Shown here one piece after another: positions 32,296 to 43,218 of a DNA stretch of 64,000 nt. This stretch comes from Candidatus Nitronereus thalassa. Its GTDB lineage: Bacteria; Nitrospirota; Nitrospiria; Nitrospirales; UBA8639. Both the position numbers and the translations under genes were made by a program. The notes under the pieces are model-generated. The model worked only from the letters and a program-made list of their open reading frames with translations. It was not told where the DNA came from and did no database searches. The stretch's first letter is position 1. Each line of letters begins with the position of its first letter. Location: contig NZ_JAQOUE010000002.1 of assembly GCF_032191465.1 (NCBI RefSeq), forward strand, positions 578,409-642,408, written 5' to 3'.

Positions 32296-33555
32296 ATGCG
32301 GTGGATATTTCGAGCGGTGTTCCTCATTCTGATTCTCATCCCGGTTTCCGTAGTTGGGGCAGCCTATTTGGCAATCGAAGACCAACCCTTAATCCAACGC
32401 GACGTTCGACTCACGCCGAAAGAAGTGCAACAAGCGAAAAAGCTGTTTAAGGAACATGATCCTCGATCATTACAACATGGCGAAGTGAAAACTATCACGG
32501 TGAGCAGGCAGGATTTAGACTTGGCACTCAATTACCTGGTGCATTTGGTTGGGAACGGCGGTTCCATCGTGACCGTCACGGATGGATATCTCATGAGCAA
32601 AACCACGGTCAAACTCCCCAAGAATCCCGTGGGAGAATTCATTAATGTTGATCTGGGAATTGCCCAAACAAAAGACCGGCCACAGTTAGCCCATTTACGA
32701 ATCGGACAACTCACAATTCCCCAATGGCTGGCCGAAAAGAGCCTTCAGCTCGCTCTTAGCCGAGCGTATCATGACACAGGGTCACCAGCAGCTAGTGAGA
32801 TCATTCACCAGGTCGCCATTCACCCTGACCACATTCAAATTACCTATCAATGGAATTCTTCCATAACGGAAATTGTACGAAGTACCTTGGTGAGTCCGGA
32901 AGACCAGGAGCGACTCAAGGCCTATCATCAACGGCTCACCCAGGTCAGCACCACCATTGGATCACAATCCACCGTGTCTCTCGTCACCCTCATGCAGCCC
33001 TTGTTTGCGTTGGCACAAGAACGTTCCAAAGACGGCAACGTCATTCAAGAAAACCGGGCCGTCATTCTGGTACTTGCGGATTATATTAATGGCCGAGGGT
33101 TGCGGCGGCTGGCTCCCGATTCCGAGCATTGGGCGCAACCCATTCAGCATAAAGTCACCTTGTCCGGACGAAAAGATTTTTCCCAGCATTTTATCATTTC
33201 CGCGGCCTTGGCCATGGAAGGTGGCGATATGATCTCCAATGCCATCGGCCTCATGAAAGAAGTGGATGATTCCCGTGGCGGCAGCGGGTTTAGTTTCACC
33301 GATTTGGGCGCTGACAAAGCCGGCACACGTTTCGGCCAACTGATAACCACATCTAAGTCAGGTCCACAGCTCCAGCAAAAACTCGCCCGCGCCATTCGCG
33401 AACAAGATTTCATGCCGGAAACTAAAGACCTTCCTGAAGGTTTATCCGAATCAGAATTTCTCCAACGTTTTGGTGGAGTGGATAGCCCACGGTATAACAA
33501 GGTGGTCGCCAAAATTGACCAACGGGTCGCCGATCTTCCTCTCTATCGAAATTAG
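32296..33555 (+). CDS. Conserved membrane-anchored protein of unknown function
   Basis: 419 residues with one N-terminal hydrophobic helix (RAVFLILILIPVSVVGAAYLAI) and a large part that should face the periplasm. The order after the helix is a mixed region with SRQDLDLALNYLVHLVG, then a helical part, then a C-terminal motif with FSQHFIISAALAMEGGD, DSRGGSGFSFTDLGADKAGTRF and a short tail. I have seen this C-terminal combination in proteins from several proteobacteria, always without an assigned function. No catalytic motif is recognisable. It stands alone, after the bactofilin on the other strand, and is followed by a candidate small RNA. Confidence 0.82.
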   Translation: MRWIFRAVFLILILIPVSVVGAAYLAIEDQPLIQRDVRLTPKEVQQAKKLFKEHDPRSLQHGEVKTITVSRQDLDLALNYLVHLVGNGGSIVTVTDGYLMSKTTVKLPKNPVGEFINVDLGIAQTKDRPQLAHLRIGQLTIPQWLAEKSLQLALSRAYHDTGSPAASEIIHQVAIHPDHIQITYQWNSSITEIVRSTLVSPEDQERLKAYHQRLTQVSTTIGSQSTVSLVTLMQPLFALAQERSKDGNVIQENRAVILVLADYINGRGLRRLAPDSEHWAQPIQHKVTLSGRKDFSQHFIISAALAMEGGDMISNAIGLMKEVDDSRGGSGFSFTDLGADKAGTRFGQLITTSKSGPQLQQKLARAIREQDFMPETKDLPEGLSESEFLQRFGGVDSPRYNKVVAKIDQRVADLPLYRN

Positions 33556-33720
33556 ACCTTTCTCTTAACAATCCAAATGTTGTCCGCCCATTTCTGAGAA
33601 ACAACTTTCCCTGCGAAACAGAAAGGCAGCACTCCAAAAAGATCATGGAATTCCTGTGCTCCTCAGCATACTACGCTCTTTACTTCTAATCGTTCTGCAT
33701 CATCCTCTCTAGAATTCACC

Positions 33721-33749
33721 TTGACTCCACTTCCCCGGAGGCTTATGAT
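33721..33749 (+). promoter_or_regulatory. Sigma-70 promoter for the candidate small RNA
   Basis: TTGACT at 33721-33726 and TATGAT at 33744-33749 are separated by 17 bases, a near-consensus housekeeping promoter (five of six matches in each box). The start of transcription would be near 33756. Confidence 0.7.
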
Positions 33750-33755
33750 TTTTAT

Positions 33756-33868
33756 ATAACATGGCTTGGGGGGTCGCTAATGGGATAATCCTCGGGCTTC
33801 TGCCTAGCACTACGTCTGAAGAAACAAAACTAAGCCTTTTCGGTGATGACAACCGAAAAGGCTTTTTT
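33756..33868 (+). ncRNA. Candidate small RNA of about 110 bases
   Basis: A strong promoter, about 75 bases without a credible coding frame, and a strong intrinsic terminator follow each other in order. The body contains a G-run (CTTGGGGGGTCGC) and a segment CCTCGGGCTTCTGCCTAG that can form local stems. I find no match by eye to a known riboswitch or to 6S, tmRNA or SRP RNA. The terminator lies about 195 bases before the receiver/Rossmann gene, so it could also act as an attenuated leader, but the distance and the ribosome site of that gene argue for a separate RNA. Confidence 0.5.
33832..33868 (+). terminator. Strong intrinsic terminator
   Basis: A perfect 13-bp stem (AAGCCTTTTCGGT at 33832-33844 and its complement at 33852-33864) with a 7-base loop runs into six Ts. 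It closes the candidate small RNA. Confidence 0.93.
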
Positions 33869-34062
33869 AATTCCCCCATGTCATCCACAATATTATGTCA
33901 CCCTCAAAACCGCGTAAATTTTGCCTATAGAAAGGGAAGGAGAGACGCGGCCAAAGACTCGCAAGTCGGCACAGCACCCATTGAGAATGATGGGAAGGTT
34001 GTGAGTGGGGGAAGAACCCCCTGCCATCAATAACCATCTGTATTCTTCAAAGGAGGTGTATC

Positions 34063-34863
34063 ATGTCAACTCCCAAATCCTCATCATTTTTTGGATCAAC
34101 CCAAACCACCAACGGTTGCGTCATGGTGGTGGAGGACGATCCAAATATCAGAAACCACGTGTCCAAACTTCTGGAGAAAAAAGGGTATGACGTCATCGAG
34201 GTAGAAAACGGCACAAAGGCCATTGAAACTATTGGATCTGGAGAGAACCCCTTGGTAGTCGATGTGGTCATTGCTGATATCGACAAACCCAAGGGCATGG
34301 AAGCCATTAACTTCCTTAAAAAAGAGTATCCCCGTGTGTCAGTGATCGCATTAACGGGATTGGAAGAGAAGTTAAAGACCACTCAAGTAGAAACCAAAGT
34401 GGTCATTCTCGGGGCAGGAAAAGGTGGCTCTGCGTTTCTTGACCTATTGAATCACCTTCCCGAAGTCGAAATTGTAGGCATCGCGGATAAAGTCGCCTCA
34501 GCTCCTGGATTAATTAGCGCCCGTCAACTTGGGGTCCCTGTTTGGGATAATATCATAGAACTTATCGCCCAGGAGGACGTGAATCTGATTGTGGATGTCA
34601 CCGGGAACCCTGAAATGGCTCAGATTATTGAAAAACATAAAAGCGATACAGCCGAAATTCTTAGTGGGACTGCCTCAAAACTTCTCTGGGATGTGGTCCG
34701 ATACGAATCACAGATGCAAAGCCATGTCCTCCAAACGGAAAAGATGTCTAATCTCATGAAGGCTGGAATGATCTTTGATTACCTCATCAAGCCTGTAAAA
34801 GAAGATAAAATTAACTCCGTGATTATCCAAGCCATGGATCACCGGGAAATCGCCAAGCTCTAA
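34063..34863 (+). CDS. Response-regulator receiver domain split by an inserted Rossmann domain
   Basis: 266 residues. The first part is a receiver domain: strand 1 with the acidic cluster VVEDD (Asp 25, 26), the phosphoacceptor Asp 72 in VVIADIDKP, and strand 4 with VIALTG (Thr 98). Instead of the usual helix 4 and strand 5, residues about 111-230 form an NAD(P)-type Rossmann domain: KVVILGAGKGGSAFLDLL, EVEIVGIADK, then VNLIVDVTGNPEMAQI. The missing receiver end then appears at the C-terminus: MIFDYLIKPVKEDKINSVII, with the conserved Lys 243-Pro. Read together this is one domain inserted into another, not a tandem fusion. AAGGAGG lies just before the ATG. No kinase is adjacent. Confidence 0.8.
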   Translation: MSTPKSSSFFGSTQTTNGCVMVVEDDPNIRNHVSKLLEKKGYDVIEVENGTKAIETIGSGENPLVVDVVIADIDKPKGMEAINFLKKEYPRVSVIALTGLEEKLKTTQVETKVVILGAGKGGSAFLDLLNHLPEVEIVGIADKVASAPGLISARQLGVPVWDNIIELIAQEDVNLIVDVTGNPEMAQIIEKHKSDTAEILSGTASKLLWDVVRYESQMQSHVLQTEKMSNLMKAGMIFDYLIKPVKEDKINSVIIQAMDHREIAKL

Positions 34864-35272
34864 ACACACTGACCCTGGCCATGAGGATGTAAACCATACA
34901 TAGCAGGTCCACAAAAGAACACCGTTACAGGGAAAAAACATACGCACCATAGGAGAGAAGAAATACACCTCTGCTGTGGTGCCTTCCCAGACATTTACCC
35001 TCCCCCAAATCCGTCTTTTTGAATGGCAGAGAGTTCGCAACTTCATCCTAAAGGCCGTCAAACTTGTCGCTAAAAATTGCTCGGCCAGATATCCGATCGC
35101 GTTATCCAATTTCTCGAGATTCCACCTCCAACCACCATGGTCGTTCGTGTTGCGAAGCCATACGAAAGGCCTTAGGATTCCTTTCCAGACAAAAGGATTC
35201 GAATCAATTCCATCATGGCAAAGAGTTGGGGTTGATCATTTCCCAACAGGCGCAGCAACTCAAAACCATACG
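34864..35272. other. Intergenic region before fetB, no gene seen
   Basis: The fetB frame stays open upstream through 34976, but the extension has no ribosome site and no family character, so I treat it as non-coding. I looked for the FetA ATPase here and see no Walker A or LSGG motif in any frame. Confidence 0.5.
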
Positions 35273-36007
35273 ATGAATAACTCTCTTCAGGCCATCTCAT
35301 TATCAGGAATTTTGTGGGCCTTTGCGCCAACGCTCATTGTTTTGGCCATTCTGTATGGATGGAAGCTCAATTTAAACGCTACACTGCATGCCATCACACG
35401 CATGTTTGTTCAATTACTGCTCATCGGATATGTCCTCGTGTTTATCTTTGAGACCGAACATGCCGGCGTAATTCTTTCAGTGTTAGGGGTGATGCTAGTT
35501 GCGGCAAGCTGGATTGCATTACGACCAGTCAAAAATAAACACCCTCGGCTCTACCAAGATGCACTCCTCGCCATTGTGATTGGCGGAGGACTCACTCTGG
35601 GGCTAGTCACTCAAGTCATCCTCGAAGTCCAACCCTGGTTCTTGCCACGGTATGTAGTCCCTTTGGCGGGAATGCTCTTTGCCAGTGCCATGAACGCCGT
35701 CAGCTTAGCTGCTGAACGTTTCGAGGCAGAATGCGGAAGAGACCGTTCCTATGCCGAAGCCAGAAATACGGCACTACGTGCAGCCCTTATCCCTGTAACC
35801 AATTCATTGTTTGCCGTCGGGCTAGTTTCCTTGCCCGGCATGATGACTGGTCAAATTCTTTCCGGCATTTCCCCCCTCATCGCGGCCAAGTATCAAATAG
35901 TCATTATGTGCACCGTCTTTGGCAGTTCTGGAATTTCCGCAGCTCTCTATTTGACATTCGCAAAGAAGCATTCATCCCTAAAACAAATAGATGCCCCGAT
36001 TCATTGA
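35273..36007 (+). CDS. fetB: FetB-like ABC transporter permease (UPF0014)
   Basis: A 244-residue membrane protein with about seven helices. Family segments are ITRMFVQLLLIGYVL, VPLAGMLFASAMNAVSLAAERF and LIPVTNSLFAVGLVSLPGMMTGQILSG, the last being the permease signature, followed by KYQIVIMCTVFGSSGISAAL. In E. coli FetAB exports iron under oxidative stress. Here the partner ATPase FetA is not next to it. The ATG at 35273 begins MNNSLQAISLSG and fits the family start; the frame is open for 99 codons before it. It is convergent with trmL, ten bases apart. Confidence 0.88.
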   Translation: MNNSLQAISLSGILWAFAPTLIVLAILYGWKLNLNATLHAITRMFVQLLLIGYVLVFIFETEHAGVILSVLGVMLVAASWIALRPVKNKHPRLYQDALLAIVIGGGLTLGLVTQVILEVQPWFLPRYVVPLAGMLFASAMNAVSLAAERFEAECGRDRSYAEARNTALRAALIPVTNSLFAVGLVSLPGMMTGQILSGISPLIAAKYQIVIMCTVFGSSGISAALYLTFAKKHSSLKQIDAPIH

Positions 36008-37332: not shown

Positions 37333-38523
37333 ATGCCCATGTACGCTATGAAGTATTATTGGAAAACCTATACGACCCTCACCCTCCTGACTATTGCCCT
37401 TGCTCTCGGGATGGGAGGTGCGGTTTTCCATTACCTGACTCAAGCCTATGCTTCAAAAACGGACCAGGCTCCGGAACACATGCCTACACCAACTGTTGAT
37501 GTCGTCACGCTACAACCACAGTCTGTGCGCACGTGGAGGGAATTTTCAAGCCGTTTACGAGCAGTGGATTATGTCGAAGTCCGTCCGCAGGTAGGAGGCA
37601 CCATTACTCAGGTACTTTTTGAAGAGGGGGCCATCGTTCATAAAGGGGATCCTCTTTTTGTGATTGATCCAAGACCTTTTGAAGCTGAATTTGCAAGTGC
37701 GCGAGCGGAGTTAGAATCGGCCCGCTCGCGCGCCACTATGGCCAAACAGGAACTGAGCCGTGCGCAAGGGTTGGTAAAAAAGAACGCTATCTCTCAAAGC
37801 CGTTTTGATGCGGCCACCAATGACTATAAAGTTGCGATAGCCTCAATCAACGCAGCCAAGGCACGAATCACACGCGCCACACTTGATCTCGAATATGCGC
37901 ATATTAAGGCACCAGTCACCGGACGAATCAGTCGCGCCGAAATTACCGAAGGCAATGTCATTGAAGCCGGTCCTAACGCCCCAGTACTGGCCACAATTGT
38001 TTCCGTGGATCGACTCTACGCAGAGTTTGATGTGGATGAACAGACCTATGTCAGCACCAGACGCCAGGCAACTGGAGACACAATGCCTGTTCAGTTAACA
38101 CTGACGAGTGATCAAAGTGTGATCTATGAAGGGATCATTCACTCATTCGACAATCAACTCGATACCACGTCTGGCACGATTCGGGCTCGGGCTATATTTT
38201 CCAACACTGATGGCGTCCTGGTTCCAGGAATGTTTGCCACAGTTCAAATGGGGTCTCCGACAGAACAATCAATGTTGCTCATTAATGATCGAGCAGTGCG
38301 AACGGATCAAGATAAGAAATACGTGTATGTGGTGACACCTGAAAATACTGTCGCCTACCGCGAGGTCAAACTCGGTCGAGCCATTGAAGGAAAGCGTATG
38401 GTCCATTCGGGTCTCGAAGCGGGAGATCAAGTCCTGGTAAACAGTTTGCAACGTGTGCGCCCAGATATGGAAGTCCAGCCAATCGAACTCTCGAACTCCA
38501 TCACGCCGAAATTTGAATCATGA
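37333..38523 (+). CDS. RND efflux periplasmic adaptor (membrane-fusion protein)
   Basis: 396 residues. An N-terminal hydrophobic segment (YTTLTLLTIALALGMGGAVF) serves as signal or anchor. The order then is lipoyl half-domain (VEVRPQVGGTITQVLFEEG), an alpha-helical hairpin with Ala/Arg/Gln-rich coiled coil (about 110-190), the returning half-motif IKAPVTGRISRAEITEGNVI, and the beta-barrel and membrane-proximal domains. It links the pump at 38520 to the outer-membrane channel at 41683. It overlaps the pump gene by four bases (ATGA). The regulatory gene usual for such operons is not next to it. Confidence 0.94.
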   Translation: MPMYAMKYYWKTYTTLTLLTIALALGMGGAVFHYLTQAYASKTDQAPEHMPTPTVDVVTLQPQSVRTWREFSSRLRAVDYVEVRPQVGGTITQVLFEEGAIVHKGDPLFVIDPRPFEAEFASARAELESARSRATMAKQELSRAQGLVKKNAISQSRFDAATNDYKVAIASINAAKARITRATLDLEYAHIKAPVTGRISRAEITEGNVIEAGPNAPVLATIVSVDRLYAEFDVDEQTYVSTRRQATGDTMPVQLTLTSDQSVIYEGIIHSFDNQLDTTSGTIRARAIFSNTDGVLVPGMFATVQMGSPTEQSMLLINDRAVRTDQDKKYVYVVTPENTVAYREVKLGRAIEGKRMVHSGLEAGDQVLVNSLQRVRPDMEVQPIELSNSITPKFES

Positions 38524-41500
38524 ACATCGCAAAATTCTTTATCGATCGCCCAATTTTTGCGGGAGTGCTCTCCACCCTTATTTTTTTGGGCGGCCTCATT
38601 GCCATGTTTCAACTTCCGATTTCGGAATATCCGGATGTCGTCCCCCCCTCCGTGTTGGTGAACGCGCAATTTCCTGGCGCCAATCCCAAGGTTATTGCCG
38701 AAACCGTCGCCACGCCTCTGGAAGAACAAATTAATGGCGTGGACAACATGCTGTATATGTACTCGCAATCAACCTCTGACGGAAAGATGACGTTGACGGT
38801 CACCTTTGAATTGGGGACAGATCCAGATCTTGCTCAACAGCTCGTGCAAAACCGCGTATCCCAGGCTCTGCCGCGCCTCCCTGCCGTTACCCGCCAGTTA
38901 GGGGTCACCACAATCAAAAGCTCTGCCGACCTGACCATGGTCGTCCATCTGAAATCACCCAACGACCGATATGACATGCTCTACCTCCGTAACTATGCGG
39001 TCCTCAATGTCAAAGATGAATTAGCCAAAATTCCCGGCGTCGGGCAGGTCCTGCTCTTTGGCGCTGGCGACTATGCCATGCGCCTTTGGCTGAACCCCGA
39101 AAAAATTGCCGAACGCAATCTCACTGCGGGAGATGTGGTGAATGCAGTCCGAGAGCAAAACGTGCAGATCGCGGCTGGCATCATCGGTGGTGCGCCATAT
39201 GCGGATGTCGTTGAACTTCAGTTGCCCGTCAATGCCAAAGGTCGACTGGAAACTCCAGAAGAATTTGAAGAGATCATTATTCGGACAGGTCTCAATGGAC
39301 AAATCACCAGGCTCAAAGATGTGGCAAAGGTAGAAATGGGCGCTTCGGAATATGCTCTGCGCTCGCTCCTGAATAACAAAAATGCCGCCGCCATCCCCAT
39401 CTTTGCTTCACCAGGCGCCAATGCGTTGGATATTTCGAATAATGTCCGCCACAAAATGGAAGAGTTGAAAAAAAACTTTCCTGAAGGCCTGGATTATAGC
39501 GTGGTTTACGATCCGACCGTTTTTGTCAGGGGTTCGATTAAAGCCGTCATTAAAACCTTACTCGAAGCCGTCGCCTTAGTGGTATTGGTGGTGATTTTGT
39601 TTCTTCAAACATGGCGGGCCTCGATCATTCCGTTGCTCGCCGTGCCTGTCTCCATTATTGGCACCTTTGGGCTCATGTACCTGTTCGGATTTTCCATAAA
39701 CGTCCTCACGCTGTTCGGACTGATTCTCGCCATTGGCATCGTGGTGGATGATGCCATCGTGGTCGTGGAAAATGTGGAACGCAATATTGAAAATGGCCTT
39801 TCACCCAAAGAGGCCACGTACAAAGCCATGCGTGAAGTCAGCGGCCCGATCATCGCCATTACGTTGACCCTCGTTGCCGTGTTCGTGCCAATTGCGTTTA
39901 CCAGCGGGCTCACTGGACAGTTCTACAAACAATTTGCCTTGACCATTGCCATTTCCACGGTCATCTCTGCGTTCAACTCGCTGACCTTAAGCCCCGCCAT
40001 AGCAAGCTTGCTGCTCAAACCTCAAGGCCAAGCCAATGATTGGCTGACACGGAGCATGAACAAAGCCTTTGGCCCGTTTTTTCAGGGTTTCAATCGTTTT
40101 TTTCGCTTTAGCTCAGAAAAATATTCAAGTGGCGTGGGGAAAACTCTGGCCCGTCGAGGTGCAGGGCTTGCCCTCTATGTAGTTTTACTCGTCATGGCCT
40201 ACGGCATGTTCAAAACGGTGCCCAACGGTTTTGTGCCAGTGCAAGACAAACAATATCTCGTCAGTTTTGCGCAATTGCCTGATGGCGCAACGTTGGACCG
40301 TACGGAAGCCGTCCTTCGCGAAATGTCGGACATGGCACTACGCATCCCTGGCGTGGCCGGGGCCGTCGGCTTTCCAGGACTCTCGATCAATGACTTTACC
40401 AATAGTTCAAGCGCCGGGATCGTGTTTCTCCCACTTGATGATTTTGATCAGCGCACCGATCCGTCGAGGTCAGCCTTCGCAATCACCCAGACCCTTCAAC
40501 AACAATATAACGGCATTGAAGAAGCCTTTGTGGCGATTTTTCCACCACCACCAGTCCAAGGTCTCGGCACCATTGGAGGGTTTAAACTGCAGATCGAAGA
40601 CCGAACCGACCAAGGCTATCAAGCCTTGCAGGAGGCCGTGGGGAACGTCCTGGCCAAAGCCTATGCCTCTCCAGAACTGACCGGAGTATTCTCCAGCTAC
40701 AAAATCAATGTGCCGCAATTGTATGCGGAATTGGATCGTACCAAAGCCAAGCAACTTGGGCTCAATATCAATGAAGTGTTTGAAGCCATGCAGGTCTATC
40801 TCGGCTCGCTCTATATCAATGACTTCAATGCCTTTGGACGCACTTATCAGGTCATTGCCCAAGCCGAAAAACAGTTTCGCGATGCACCGAACGATATTCT
40901 GAATCTCAAGGTTCGAAATCAACGTGGGGAAATGGTGCCTCTAGGATCAATCGTGCACATCAGCGAAACCTTCGGACCGGAATCGGCTCAACGATATAAT
41001 GCCTTCCGCGCCGCGGATCTGAATGGGAATGCCGCGCCTGGATATTCTTCAGGCCAGGCACAGGAAACAATCACGCGAATCTTAGAAGAAACGCTTCCAC
41101 AGGGCATGCAATTTGAGTGGACGGACCTCACCTATCAGCAAATACTGGCCGGGGATACTACAATGTATGTGATACCTTTGGTGCTGTTCCTTGTGTTCTT
41201 GGTGTTGGCTGCACAATATGAAAGTTTGACTCTTCCGCTCGCGATCATACTCATCGTTCCGATGAGTATGCTGTCGGCTTTAATCGGTGTGTGGCTGTCA
41301 GGAGGCGACAATAATATCTTCACCCAGATCAGTTTGTTTGTACTCATGGGACTCGCGACGAAAAACGCGATCCTCATTGTGGAATTTGCACGCGAGCTGG
41401 AGCATCAAGGCCAAAGCATTGTCCAAGCTGCCTTGGAAGCCTGTCGTTTGCGATTACGCCCAATTCTCATGACCTCATTTTCGTTCATTATGGGTGTCCT

Positions 41501-41705
41501 GCCGATGGCCATCTCTTCTGGCGCGGGAGCGGAAATGCGAAATGCCATGGGTATTGCCGTGTTTTCAGGCATGCTGGGTGTGACCTTTTTCGGACTTTTT
41601 CTCACGCCTGTGTTTTATGTCGTCTTACGCAAGCTGGAAACCCGCACGACTAAAACGGAAATTACCAAAGATGAGCTGAGTCATGATGTGGTTCCGAATA
41701 ATTAA
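38520..41705 (+). CDS. RND efflux pump inner-membrane transporter (HAE1 family)
   Basis: 1061 residues, with the expected first helix (FFIDRPIFAGVLSTLIFLGG), two large periplasmic loops, and the proton-relay segment IGIVVDDAIVVVENVERN in helix 4, which has the two Asp residues. The second half shows FVPVQDKQYL, GFPGLSINDF and LATKNAILIVEFA. Length and helix pattern match AcrB/MexF-type drug pumps; the substrate range cannot be read. The ATG overlaps the adaptor stop, and the OMF gene start overlaps its own end by 23 bases, so all three are translated from one mRNA. Confidence 0.95.
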   Translation: MNIAKFFIDRPIFAGVLSTLIFLGGLIAMFQLPISEYPDVVPPSVLVNAQFPGANPKVIAETVATPLEEQINGVDNMLYMYSQSTSDGKMTLTVTFELGTDPDLAQQLVQNRVSQALPRLPAVTRQLGVTTIKSSADLTMVVHLKSPNDRYDMLYLRNYAVLNVKDELAKIPGVGQVLLFGAGDYAMRLWLNPEKIAERNLTAGDVVNAVREQNVQIAAGIIGGAPYADVVELQLPVNAKGRLETPEEFEEIIIRTGLNGQITRLKDVAKVEMGASEYALRSLLNNKNAAAIPIFASPGANALDISNNVRHKMEELKKNFPEGLDYSVVYDPTVFVRGSIKAVIKTLLEAVALVVLVVILFLQTWRASIIPLLAVPVSIIGTFGLMYLFGFSINVLTLFGLILAIGIVVDDAIVVVENVERNIENGLSPKEATYKAMREVSGPIIAITLTLVAVFVPIAFTSGLTGQFYKQFALTIAISTVISAFNSLTLSPAIASLLLKPQGQANDWLTRSMNKAFGPFFQGFNRFFRFSSEKYSSGVGKTLARRGAGLALYVVLLVMAYGMFKTVPNGFVPVQDKQYLVSFAQLPDGATLDRTEAVLREMSDMALRIPGVAGAVGFPGLSINDFTNSSSAGIVFLPLDDFDQRTDPSRSAFAITQTLQQQYNGIEEAFVAIFPPPPVQGLGTIGGFKLQIEDRTDQGYQALQEAVGNVLAKAYASPELTGVFSSYKINVPQLYAELDRTKAKQLGLNINEVFEAMQVYLGSLYINDFNAFGRTYQVIAQAEKQFRDAPNDILNLKVRNQRGEMVPLGSIVHISETFGPESAQRYNAFRAADLNGNAAPGYSSGQAQETITRILEETLPQGMQFEWTDLTYQQILAGDTTMYVIPLVLFLVFLVLAAQYESLTLPLAIILIVPMSMLSALIGVWLSGGDNNIFTQISLFVLMGLATKNAILIVEFARELEHQGQSIVQAALEACRLRLRPILMTSFSFIMGVLPMAISSGAGAEMRNAMGIAVFSGMLGVTFFGLFLTPVFYVVLRKLETRTTKTEITKDELSHDVVPNN

Positions 41706-43218
41706 TAATCCCAGGCTCATATTCCTGATCGGAAGTCTGCTGGCATTGTCGGCCTGCTCCGTTGGGAGGGAATACCACACACCGAAAACCGAGACCTTGG
41801 CTCAAGACAAATTCTTGGAACAAGACCAGGGACGTTTTCGCGCAACGGAACCAGTTGCCGCATGGTGGCGACAATTGGGGGATGACCAACTTACCTTGTT
41901 GGTGGAACAGGGGCTTGAGCATAACCTGGATATTCAAATTGCCCTCGCAAATCTGCAAGAAGCTCGCTTCTTGTTGAGTGAGACCACTTTCGATCGTTTT
42001 CCCACAGTGGAAACTCAAGGAAAAGTGACACGCCAATTACAAAGTAAAGAAGCGATATTTCCGCCATTTGGCAACCGGACGCAGACCACCTATAACGCCG
42101 GGTTTGATGCATTCTGGGAACTCAATTTGTTTGGCCGTGTCAGCCAGCGAATCGCCGCATCCGAAGCCAATTTAGAGGCACGGGAGGCAGATCTTGATGC
42201 CACCTATGTCACGATCGCTGCGGAAGTCGCTCGAACCTATGTAGAACTCCGTGGTGGGCAATACCGTCTCGAGGTCGCGAGGCGAAACGCGGACAATCAA
42301 CAACAGACCTACAACCTGACAAAGGACTTGTTTGAAGCCGGCGCCAGTGACGGGCTGGACATGGAACGCGCACGAACGCAATTAGAATTGACCAAGTCCA
42401 CAATTCCACCACTCGAAGCCGAAGTGAACTCGGCCATGAACCGCCTTGCAGTGCTGACCGGACAACCCCCAACGACGTTTCATGTAATGTTACAGTCCGT
42501 AGAGCCGCTTCCGTCCATTCCCACCACCGTCGACGTTGGAGACCCAATGGCCCTGCTTCAACGCCGGCCGGATATCCGGGCAGCCGAGCGAGACCTTGCA
42601 AGCGCAGTTGCGGAATATAATGTGAACGTGACGGATCTCTATCCTAATGTCACGGTTAAAGGAAGTCTTGGGTTTTCCTCGACGTCGATTTCCGATCTCG
42701 TCACAGGATCAGCAGGAACATATCTCATCGGCCCACAAATCAACTGGGCCGCATTCAACCTTGGCCGTGTCTTCGCTAGGATAGATGCCGCAGATGCGCG
42801 GGCCAAGGCCCGCTTGGCGTCCTTTGAAAAAACCGTATTGCGAGCTCTGGAAGAAACTGAATCCGCGATGGTTAATTTTTCCCGGCAGGAACAAAGCCGC
42901 GCACGCCTCCAAGACGCCGCGGTCTCAAGCGCGAAGGCCGCAAAGTTTGCAGAGGAACGATTCGACGCTGGAATTGATAATTTTCTGGATGTACTCGTCG
43001 CTCAGGCGACGATGCTGGAAGCGCAAGATCGTTTGGCTAACAGCGAGATTAATGTTGCGTTGAATTTGGTGGCAATTTATAAAGCCCTCGGTGGCGGATG
43101 GCAGGTAAAAACTCCCTCGACCAACCTATCGACCGATGTAGCTGTCGTCCCCACCGCTACGCGACAAGACATTGTTGATTCGTTTATGCAGAAGGTGCCT
43201 ACATCAAAAGGCCAGTAA
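41683..43218 (+). CDS. Outer-membrane efflux channel lipoprotein (NodT/OprM family)
   Basis: 511 residues with a lipoprotein signal (LIFLIGSLLALSACSVG; lipobox LSAC, so Cys is acylated). The two TolC-like repeats follow: WWRQLGDDQLTLLVEQGLEHN and LEARFLLS..VETQG in the first and ERDLASAVAEYNVNVTDLYPNVTVKG in the second, with long helical stretches. The C-terminus is Thr/Val-rich. It forms the duct for the RND pump upstream. Its start at 41683 lies inside the pump gene. Confidence 0.94.
   Translation: MMWFRIINNPRLIFLIGSLLALSACSVGREYHTPKTETLAQDKFLEQDQGRFRATEPVAAWWRQLGDDQLTLLVEQGLEHNLDIQIALANLQEARFLLSETTFDRFPTVETQGKVTRQLQSKEAIFPPFGNRTQTTYNAGFDAFWELNLFGRVSQRIAASEANLEAREADLDATYVTIAAEVARTYVELRGGQYRLEVARRNADNQQQTYNLTKDLFEAGASDGLDMERARTQLELTKSTIPPLEAEVNSAMNRLAVLTGQPPTTFHVMLQSVEPLPSIPTTVDVGDPMALLQRRPDIRAAERDLASAVAEYNVNVTDLYPNVTVKGSLGFSSTSISDLVTGSAGTYLIGPQINWAAFNLGRVFARIDAADARAKARLASFEKTVLRALEETESAMVNFSRQEQSRARLQDAAVSSAKAAKFAEERFDAGIDNFLDVLVAQATMLEAQDRLANSEINVALNLVAIYKALGGGWQVKTPSTNLSTDVAVVPTATRQDIVDSFMQKVPTSKGQ

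Follow-up and report, generated by a model that had tools for sequence, protein, structure and literature searches.

A receiver domain interrupted by a Rossmann-type domain in Candidatus Nitronereus thalassa and its relatives

Few signalling domains are as common as the receiver, which is generally regarded as a unit that cannot be divided. The locus studied here raises the question of whether a receiver can be split by a second domain, and of what such a protein might do. It lies in a window of 64,000 nucleotides from Candidatus Nitronereus thalassa (assembly GCF_032191465.1, contig NZ_JAQOUE010000002.1, positions 578,409 to 642,408 of the forward strand), the whole stretch of DNA that was analysed, in which a gene at positions 34063 to 34863 (+ strand, as for all features of this gene and its upstream region) starts with ATG and encodes 266 amino acids followed by a stop codon. 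An earlier note had proposed that this gene encodes a receiver interrupted by a Rossmann domain; the residues on which the proposal was built (Asp25, Asp26, Asp72, Thr98 and Lys243) were found at these very positions when read in the 266-residue frame.

The first part of the receiver covers residues 18-100 (34114-34362), from beta1 to beta4, and holds the acidic pair Asp25/Asp26, the aligned phospho-acceptor Asp72 (codon 34276-34278) and Thr98. It is recognised by the Pfam profile Response_reg (PF00072; residues 20-104, 53.8 bits for a cut-off of 30.2, profile positions 1-83 of 111), while the C-terminal tail alone gave no Pfam match. When the insert was skipped, the Response_reg score rose from 49.2 to 60.6 bits with coverage extending over positions 1-109 of 111, and that of a relative (L055) rose from 35.5 to 52.3 bits with coverage of positions 1-110. 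A more specific profile, built from 21 contiguous receivers encoded in a related operon type described below (the operon-REC profile), matched the protein in two pieces: its positions 1-87 fell on residues 19-103 (92.3 bits) and its positions 88-127 on residues 226-266, so that the two pieces join at 87|88. The tail alone scored 30.5 bits against this profile, when the best of 2000 shuffled sequences reached 10.5 bits, and two well-scoring pieces flanking the insert were found in all 16 family members tested. Using blastp, contiguous receivers of about 150 residues from the same genome and from relatives mostly gave two matches each, at query residues ~5-100 and 225-266, with identities of 35-45% for the tail and with few receiver residues separating the paired matches; for example, query residues 5-100 aligned with residues 28-124 of the L069 receiver and query residues 225-266 with its residues 127-167.

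The second part of the receiver (residues 226-266, 34738-34860, as delimited by the operon-REC profile) thus comprises the end of alpha4, beta5 and alpha5, and holds Lys243-Pro244 together with the aromatic switch residue Tyr240 in beta5. The earlier note was right that the end of the receiver follows the insert, but its starting point at residue 233 has to be moved to about 226, since alpha4 as well as beta5 and alpha5 follow the insert; the break therefore lies in the beta4-alpha4 loop, directly after Thr98-Gly99, where about 125 residues forming a GAGKGG Rossmann domain and a helix are intercalated. The window protein lacks the uninterrupted chain that is usual for PF00072 and not needed for homology; its membership of the receiver domain rests on homology. 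Altogether, these comparisons confirm, at the level of sequence, that the 34063-34863 frame encodes a receiver interrupted in its beta4-alpha4 loop. The central claim of the earlier note is thereby upheld by the homology to contiguous receivers, as well as by 17 further genes and by purifying selection (see below), and less independently by structure prediction.

The predicted structures have to be read together with the alignments that they were made from. AlphaFold2 run on two sequences left the tail unplaced, with pLDDT below 40. For a second alignment, seven contiguous receivers were added and the 17 split relatives were left out, and row subsets were tried until MAFFT set alpha4 and beta5 at the tail, a choice that favours the split-receiver model. 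The second model, in which the tail completes the receiver, had a mean pLDDT of 76, from a shallow alignment whose rows already span the insert (mostly 75-93 for residues 18-100, ~76-88 for the insert and 81-85 for the tail), and a single helix at residues 204-233 connects the insert to beta5. A structural aligner superposed this model, whose alignment rows already bridge the insert, on whole receivers with Z scores of 17-19, including 118 of the 120 residues of YycF over model residues 17-264 (Z 18.3, 1.7 Å). The model thus appears to show one receiver fold around the insert, partly built in by the choice of rows; since the helper rows bridge the insert, it indicates that such an arrangement is sterically feasible and falls short of proof. 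The linker and helix residues 209-221 were modelled at low confidence, so that the model does not demonstrate a rigid coupling through the helix. Neither of the outcomes that the earlier note had named as speaking against a split receiver, a tail packing elsewhere or a second set of catalytic residues, was seen, although the two-sequence model could not place the tail.

The insert begins with a variable linker (residues 101-110, 34363-34392) that forms its 5' junction, as judged from the alignment and from pLDDT below 50 at residues 102-107. It is followed by the nested Rossmann domain (residues 111-203, 34393-34671), in which Pfam recognised GFO_IDH_MocA (PF01408; residues 112-187, 28.8 bits for a cut-off of 24) and also DapB_N within residues 112-203; eight of ten members matched GFO_IDH_MocA at E 0.01 or better. 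No catalytic C-terminal domain of the GFO/IDH/MocA type follows in the window protein sequence, and sequence searches of solved structures matched the receivers and gave just weak Rossmann-type matches for the insert. The domain carries the glycine motif G117xG119xxG122, an aspartate (Asp142) ending the second strand and a DVTG motif at residues 178-181; Gly119, Gly121 and Asp142 are invariant in all 17 aligned sequences, and Gly117 and Gly122 in every row of a ten-row alignment. In Rossmann domains in general, an aspartate ending the second strand is expected to favour NAD(H) rather than NADP(H). Going by the glycine motif and Asp142, a dinucleotide would be the probable ligand, if the domain binds one. 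The long single helix at residues 204-233 (34672-34761), delimited by the model, by the spacing and by a match to kinases, leads from the Rossmann domain into alpha4 of the receiver; the Trp209-Gly235 spacing is fixed in all members, and the first two thirds of this helix match the linker helix of these kinases (LW...TEKLAGM).

Where the two components may come from is indicated by the rest of the genome. Within its own genome, and leaving the protein itself aside, the first half is most similar to two receivers; the gene of one of them immediately precedes the kinase gene with the best match to the insert, and the same pair of a receiver (REC) and a Rossmann-histidine-kinase was repeatedly present as an operon in relatives. 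Receiver halves and insert thus have their closest relatives in a single type of operon. In a tree, the split receivers grouped with the operon receivers (support 100), away from other receivers of the same genome used as an outgroup, and formed one side of a weakly supported branch (65); in the tree of the insert, which had few supported branches, the split sequences were not one clade, so that a single origin is not demonstrated. In the kinases, a helix (LW...QTEKLAGMGTF...H) connects the Rossmann domain to HisKA; the split proteins keep this helix and its spacing as far as TEK(L/M)A, beyond which they continue with receiver sequence ending in G..(D/N)(Y/F)..KP. This sets the 3' junction at about residues 229-232, where the kinase sequence (KLA) and the receiver sequence (EMA) resemble each other. 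HisKA and HATPase_c, both found in the parent kinases, gave no Pfam match in the window protein. These patterns lead us to infer that the split gene arose through a rearrangement within a REC/Rossmann-kinase operon. Apparent gene fusions of REC, Rossmann domain and kinase (open frames of ~570 residues) were rejected, because TGA or TAG separates the genes in all four loci checked.

The operon itself is part of a cluster recurring in relatives, in which a stand-alone REC and a Rossmann-sensor histidine kinase are often followed, just downstream, by a large histidine kinase (L004 1414-3108; L003 1414-3176; L050 5251-9466); the ligand and the role of this cluster appear to be undescribed. The genome of the window species also encodes a second type of Rossmann kinase (L005 781-1953), with the same kind of domain before a different kinase core, and the adjoining gene (123-809) encodes a response regulator that looks NarL-like by eye.

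The search for homologues with the same split, which the earlier note had called for, was productive: the layout recurs in 17 further genes from 16 genomes of the same taxonomic family and order, two of which are single-contig assemblies (G012 and G018); the tail of one copy (L051) is masked by N. When 396 genomes were sampled evenly across the phylum, a match at E 1e-50 or better turned up in 16; complete or almost complete split genes account for 15 of these, and G003 has the Rossmann part alone. Ordinary receivers were present on viral contigs and no split relative was found there, nor did plasmids match the split protein. Members are 39-79% identical to the window protein. Against the 79%-identical relative, the overall dN/dS was 0.056, indicating purifying selection; by segment, dN was lowest in the tail and highest in the linker (residues 101-110), low dN alone being used where synonymous sites were saturated. 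The acidic pair, Asp72, Thr98 and Lys243-Pro244 are kept in nearly all members, and the aromatic residue three positions before the lysine is always Tyr or Phe wherever readable. The equivalent of Asp72 is Asp in 16 of 17 aligned sequences and Asn in L050, and L049 has Gly at position 25 of the acidic pair, so that phosphorylation is perhaps not needed everywhere. The Asn-bearing split protein (L050 68-928), which may work without phosphorylation, is encoded ~4.3 kb from a parent-type operon.

The surroundings of the gene make it look like an orphan, as no neighbour is conserved throughout the family; in one genus it is flanked by genes that look, by eye, like housekeeping genes, such as polA. 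A strong Shine-Dalgarno sequence, AAAGGAGGTG (34049-34058), could be read directly from the sequence 4 bases 5' of the ATG. Further upstream, a stem-loop of 13 pairs with a T tail (33832-33864) resembles an intrinsic terminator and is no more than suggestive of a transcription unit of the split gene's own, as the consensus scan found 3 such structures when 1.9 were expected by chance. Rfam gave no match within 33400-35400. An RND-efflux-like operon is located close to the split gene both in the window (37333-43218) and in G018 (L054 3-5569), a proximity that is probably due to chance. The protein begins with a peptide (residues 1-17, 34063-34113) carrying a MFGS-like motif that, according to alignments, the stand-alone REC encoded in the parent operon shares; more generally, a K-S/T-A-x-M-F-G-G/S peptide is conserved at the N-terminus of split proteins and of many stand-alone RECs (L069, L071 and other operon RECs), where it may serve as a docking or localisation signal. 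In two relatives (L047 and L052), a hydrophobic helix, read from the sequence, takes the place of this peptide and is probably a transmembrane membrane anchor.

The layout, its conservation, the selection acting on it and the operon most similar to it are established here, and the reading that we prefer, at a probability of roughly 55%, is that the split protein is a receiver with a Rossmann-type sensor insert that arose by operon rearrangement and works as a two-input switch. The sensor of the kinase, together with its signal-carrying helix, would have been moved into the adjacent receiver on one or a few occasions; in consequence, the helix driving the histidine domain of the kinase would now run on as alpha4 of the receiver. 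One input would be the phosphorylation of Asp72 by some kinase and the other a small ligand, probably a dinucleotide, bound by the GAGKGG domain; both could shift alpha4-beta5-alpha5, the usual output face of receivers. With the insert beside the switch Thr and its helix serving as alpha4, ligand state and phosphorylation may be mutually coupled, a link between dinucleotide binding and phosphorylation being plausible and its route through the shared alpha4 helix being what the arrangement leads us to infer. The switched protein would then act through the binding of a partner, which is likely since it carries no DNA-binding or other output domain. A sharper form of this proposal, a receiver with a built-in metabolite sensor whose ligand moves alpha4 via the continuous helix, so that phosphorylation and metabolic (e.g. 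redox) state are computed together with no kinase in between, is put forward more tentatively, as a candidate that we would not bet on at even odds.

Instead, the receiver might be an ordinary phosphorylated switch whose insert is a dimerisation or docking module and no longer a sensor, as it perhaps is in the kinase. No ligand is known for the Rossmann domain of the kinases either, the insert's Pfam matches are modest (28.8 bits) and the helix resembles a kinase dimer helix, yet the glycine motif, Asp142 and DVTG are invariant or nearly so among proteins as little as 39% and at most 79% identical, which is more than a spacer needs, and we consider a role in dimerisation or docking alone unlikely, if still a serious competitor. 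Considerably less probable is that the protein antagonises the parent pathway or serves as its decoy, pairing with the Rossmann kinase via the shared domain and helix, or draining its phosphate. Such a role would fit the Rossmann domain, helix and receiver that the split protein has in common with the operon proteins, as well as the split gene of G045 located ~4.3 kb from a parent operon, but within one genus there are nine genomes, including two single-contig ones at 99-100% completeness, that contain the split protein and yielded no Rossmann-kinase operon. This retention argues against a role only as operon decoy, and in these genomes another kinase, a small phosphodonor or the ligand alone would have to drive the protein.

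That the gene strings together three independent domains (a Rossmann domain between a truncated receiver and an unrelated C-terminal segment) agrees with Pfam seeing no receiver in the tail and is highly improbable, as the tail scores far above all shuffled sequences and resumes the profile where the first part stops, a two-piece match that rejects this explanation at sequence level. An assembly error or a decaying fusion gene, conceivable because some relatives come from fragmented assemblies, is next to impossible and was rejected given the same layout in 17 independent genomes, single-contig ones included, the dN/dS value and the lack of stops or frameshifts.

We return to the two-input switch and to how it compares with what is known. 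The earlier note knew of no described family with this layout, and the open-access papers searched bear this out: they yielded no receiver with a folded domain in the beta4-alpha4 loop, so that the layout is apparently undescribed, and the main text of a 2026 survey of domain insertions (PMC13114784) mentions neither receivers nor response regulators nor CheY. The family described here shows that, in nature, the loop between beta4 and alpha4, adjacent to the switch Thr, tolerates a domain, here a sensor-type one that appears to be joined to alpha4. It offers a natural design for ligand-gated receivers, and since relatives still have both parents next to each other in an operon, the domain-insertion step is open to study.

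In the parts seen of a study of fungal Ssk1 and hybrid kinase receivers (PMC8510515), insertions of at least 10 residues occur in the alpha2-beta3 or alpha3-beta4 loops, and are described there neither as folded domains nor in the beta4-alpha4 loop. The single-domain receivers CheY, Spo0F and DivK likewise lack a fused effector domain, and the model superposes on whole CheY-type receivers, but their chains are continuous and carry no built-in ligand sensor. The PATAN domain of PatA, reportedly described by Makarova in 2006 (reference 53 of PMC7690835), is said to be a response-regulator-associated domain with an alpha-helical insertion; that insertion is inside the PATAN domain, whereas in the split protein a Rossmann domain is inside the receiver. 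The redox repressor Rex senses the NADH/NAD+ ratio with a Rossmann domain, and the likeness is that of a regulator containing such a domain; Rex is a DNA-binding repressor and involves neither a receiver nor phosphorylation. Closest of all are the two parents. The stand-alone operon RECs (L004 1414-1914, L069 404-904) belong to the same receiver family (~40-55% identity over beta1-beta4), with a MFGG/MFGS-like N-terminal peptide and a similar C-terminus (REL/REI..L in many), but they are contiguous proteins of ~150 residues with no insert and with a beta3-alpha3 loop longer than that of the split protein. The Rossmann-sensor histidine kinase of the operon (L050 5943-6974) has the same Rossmann domain (~50% identity) and the same linker helix up to TEKLAGM; in the kinase this helix continues into HisKA and HATPase_c, whereas in the split protein it continues into alpha4 of the receiver.
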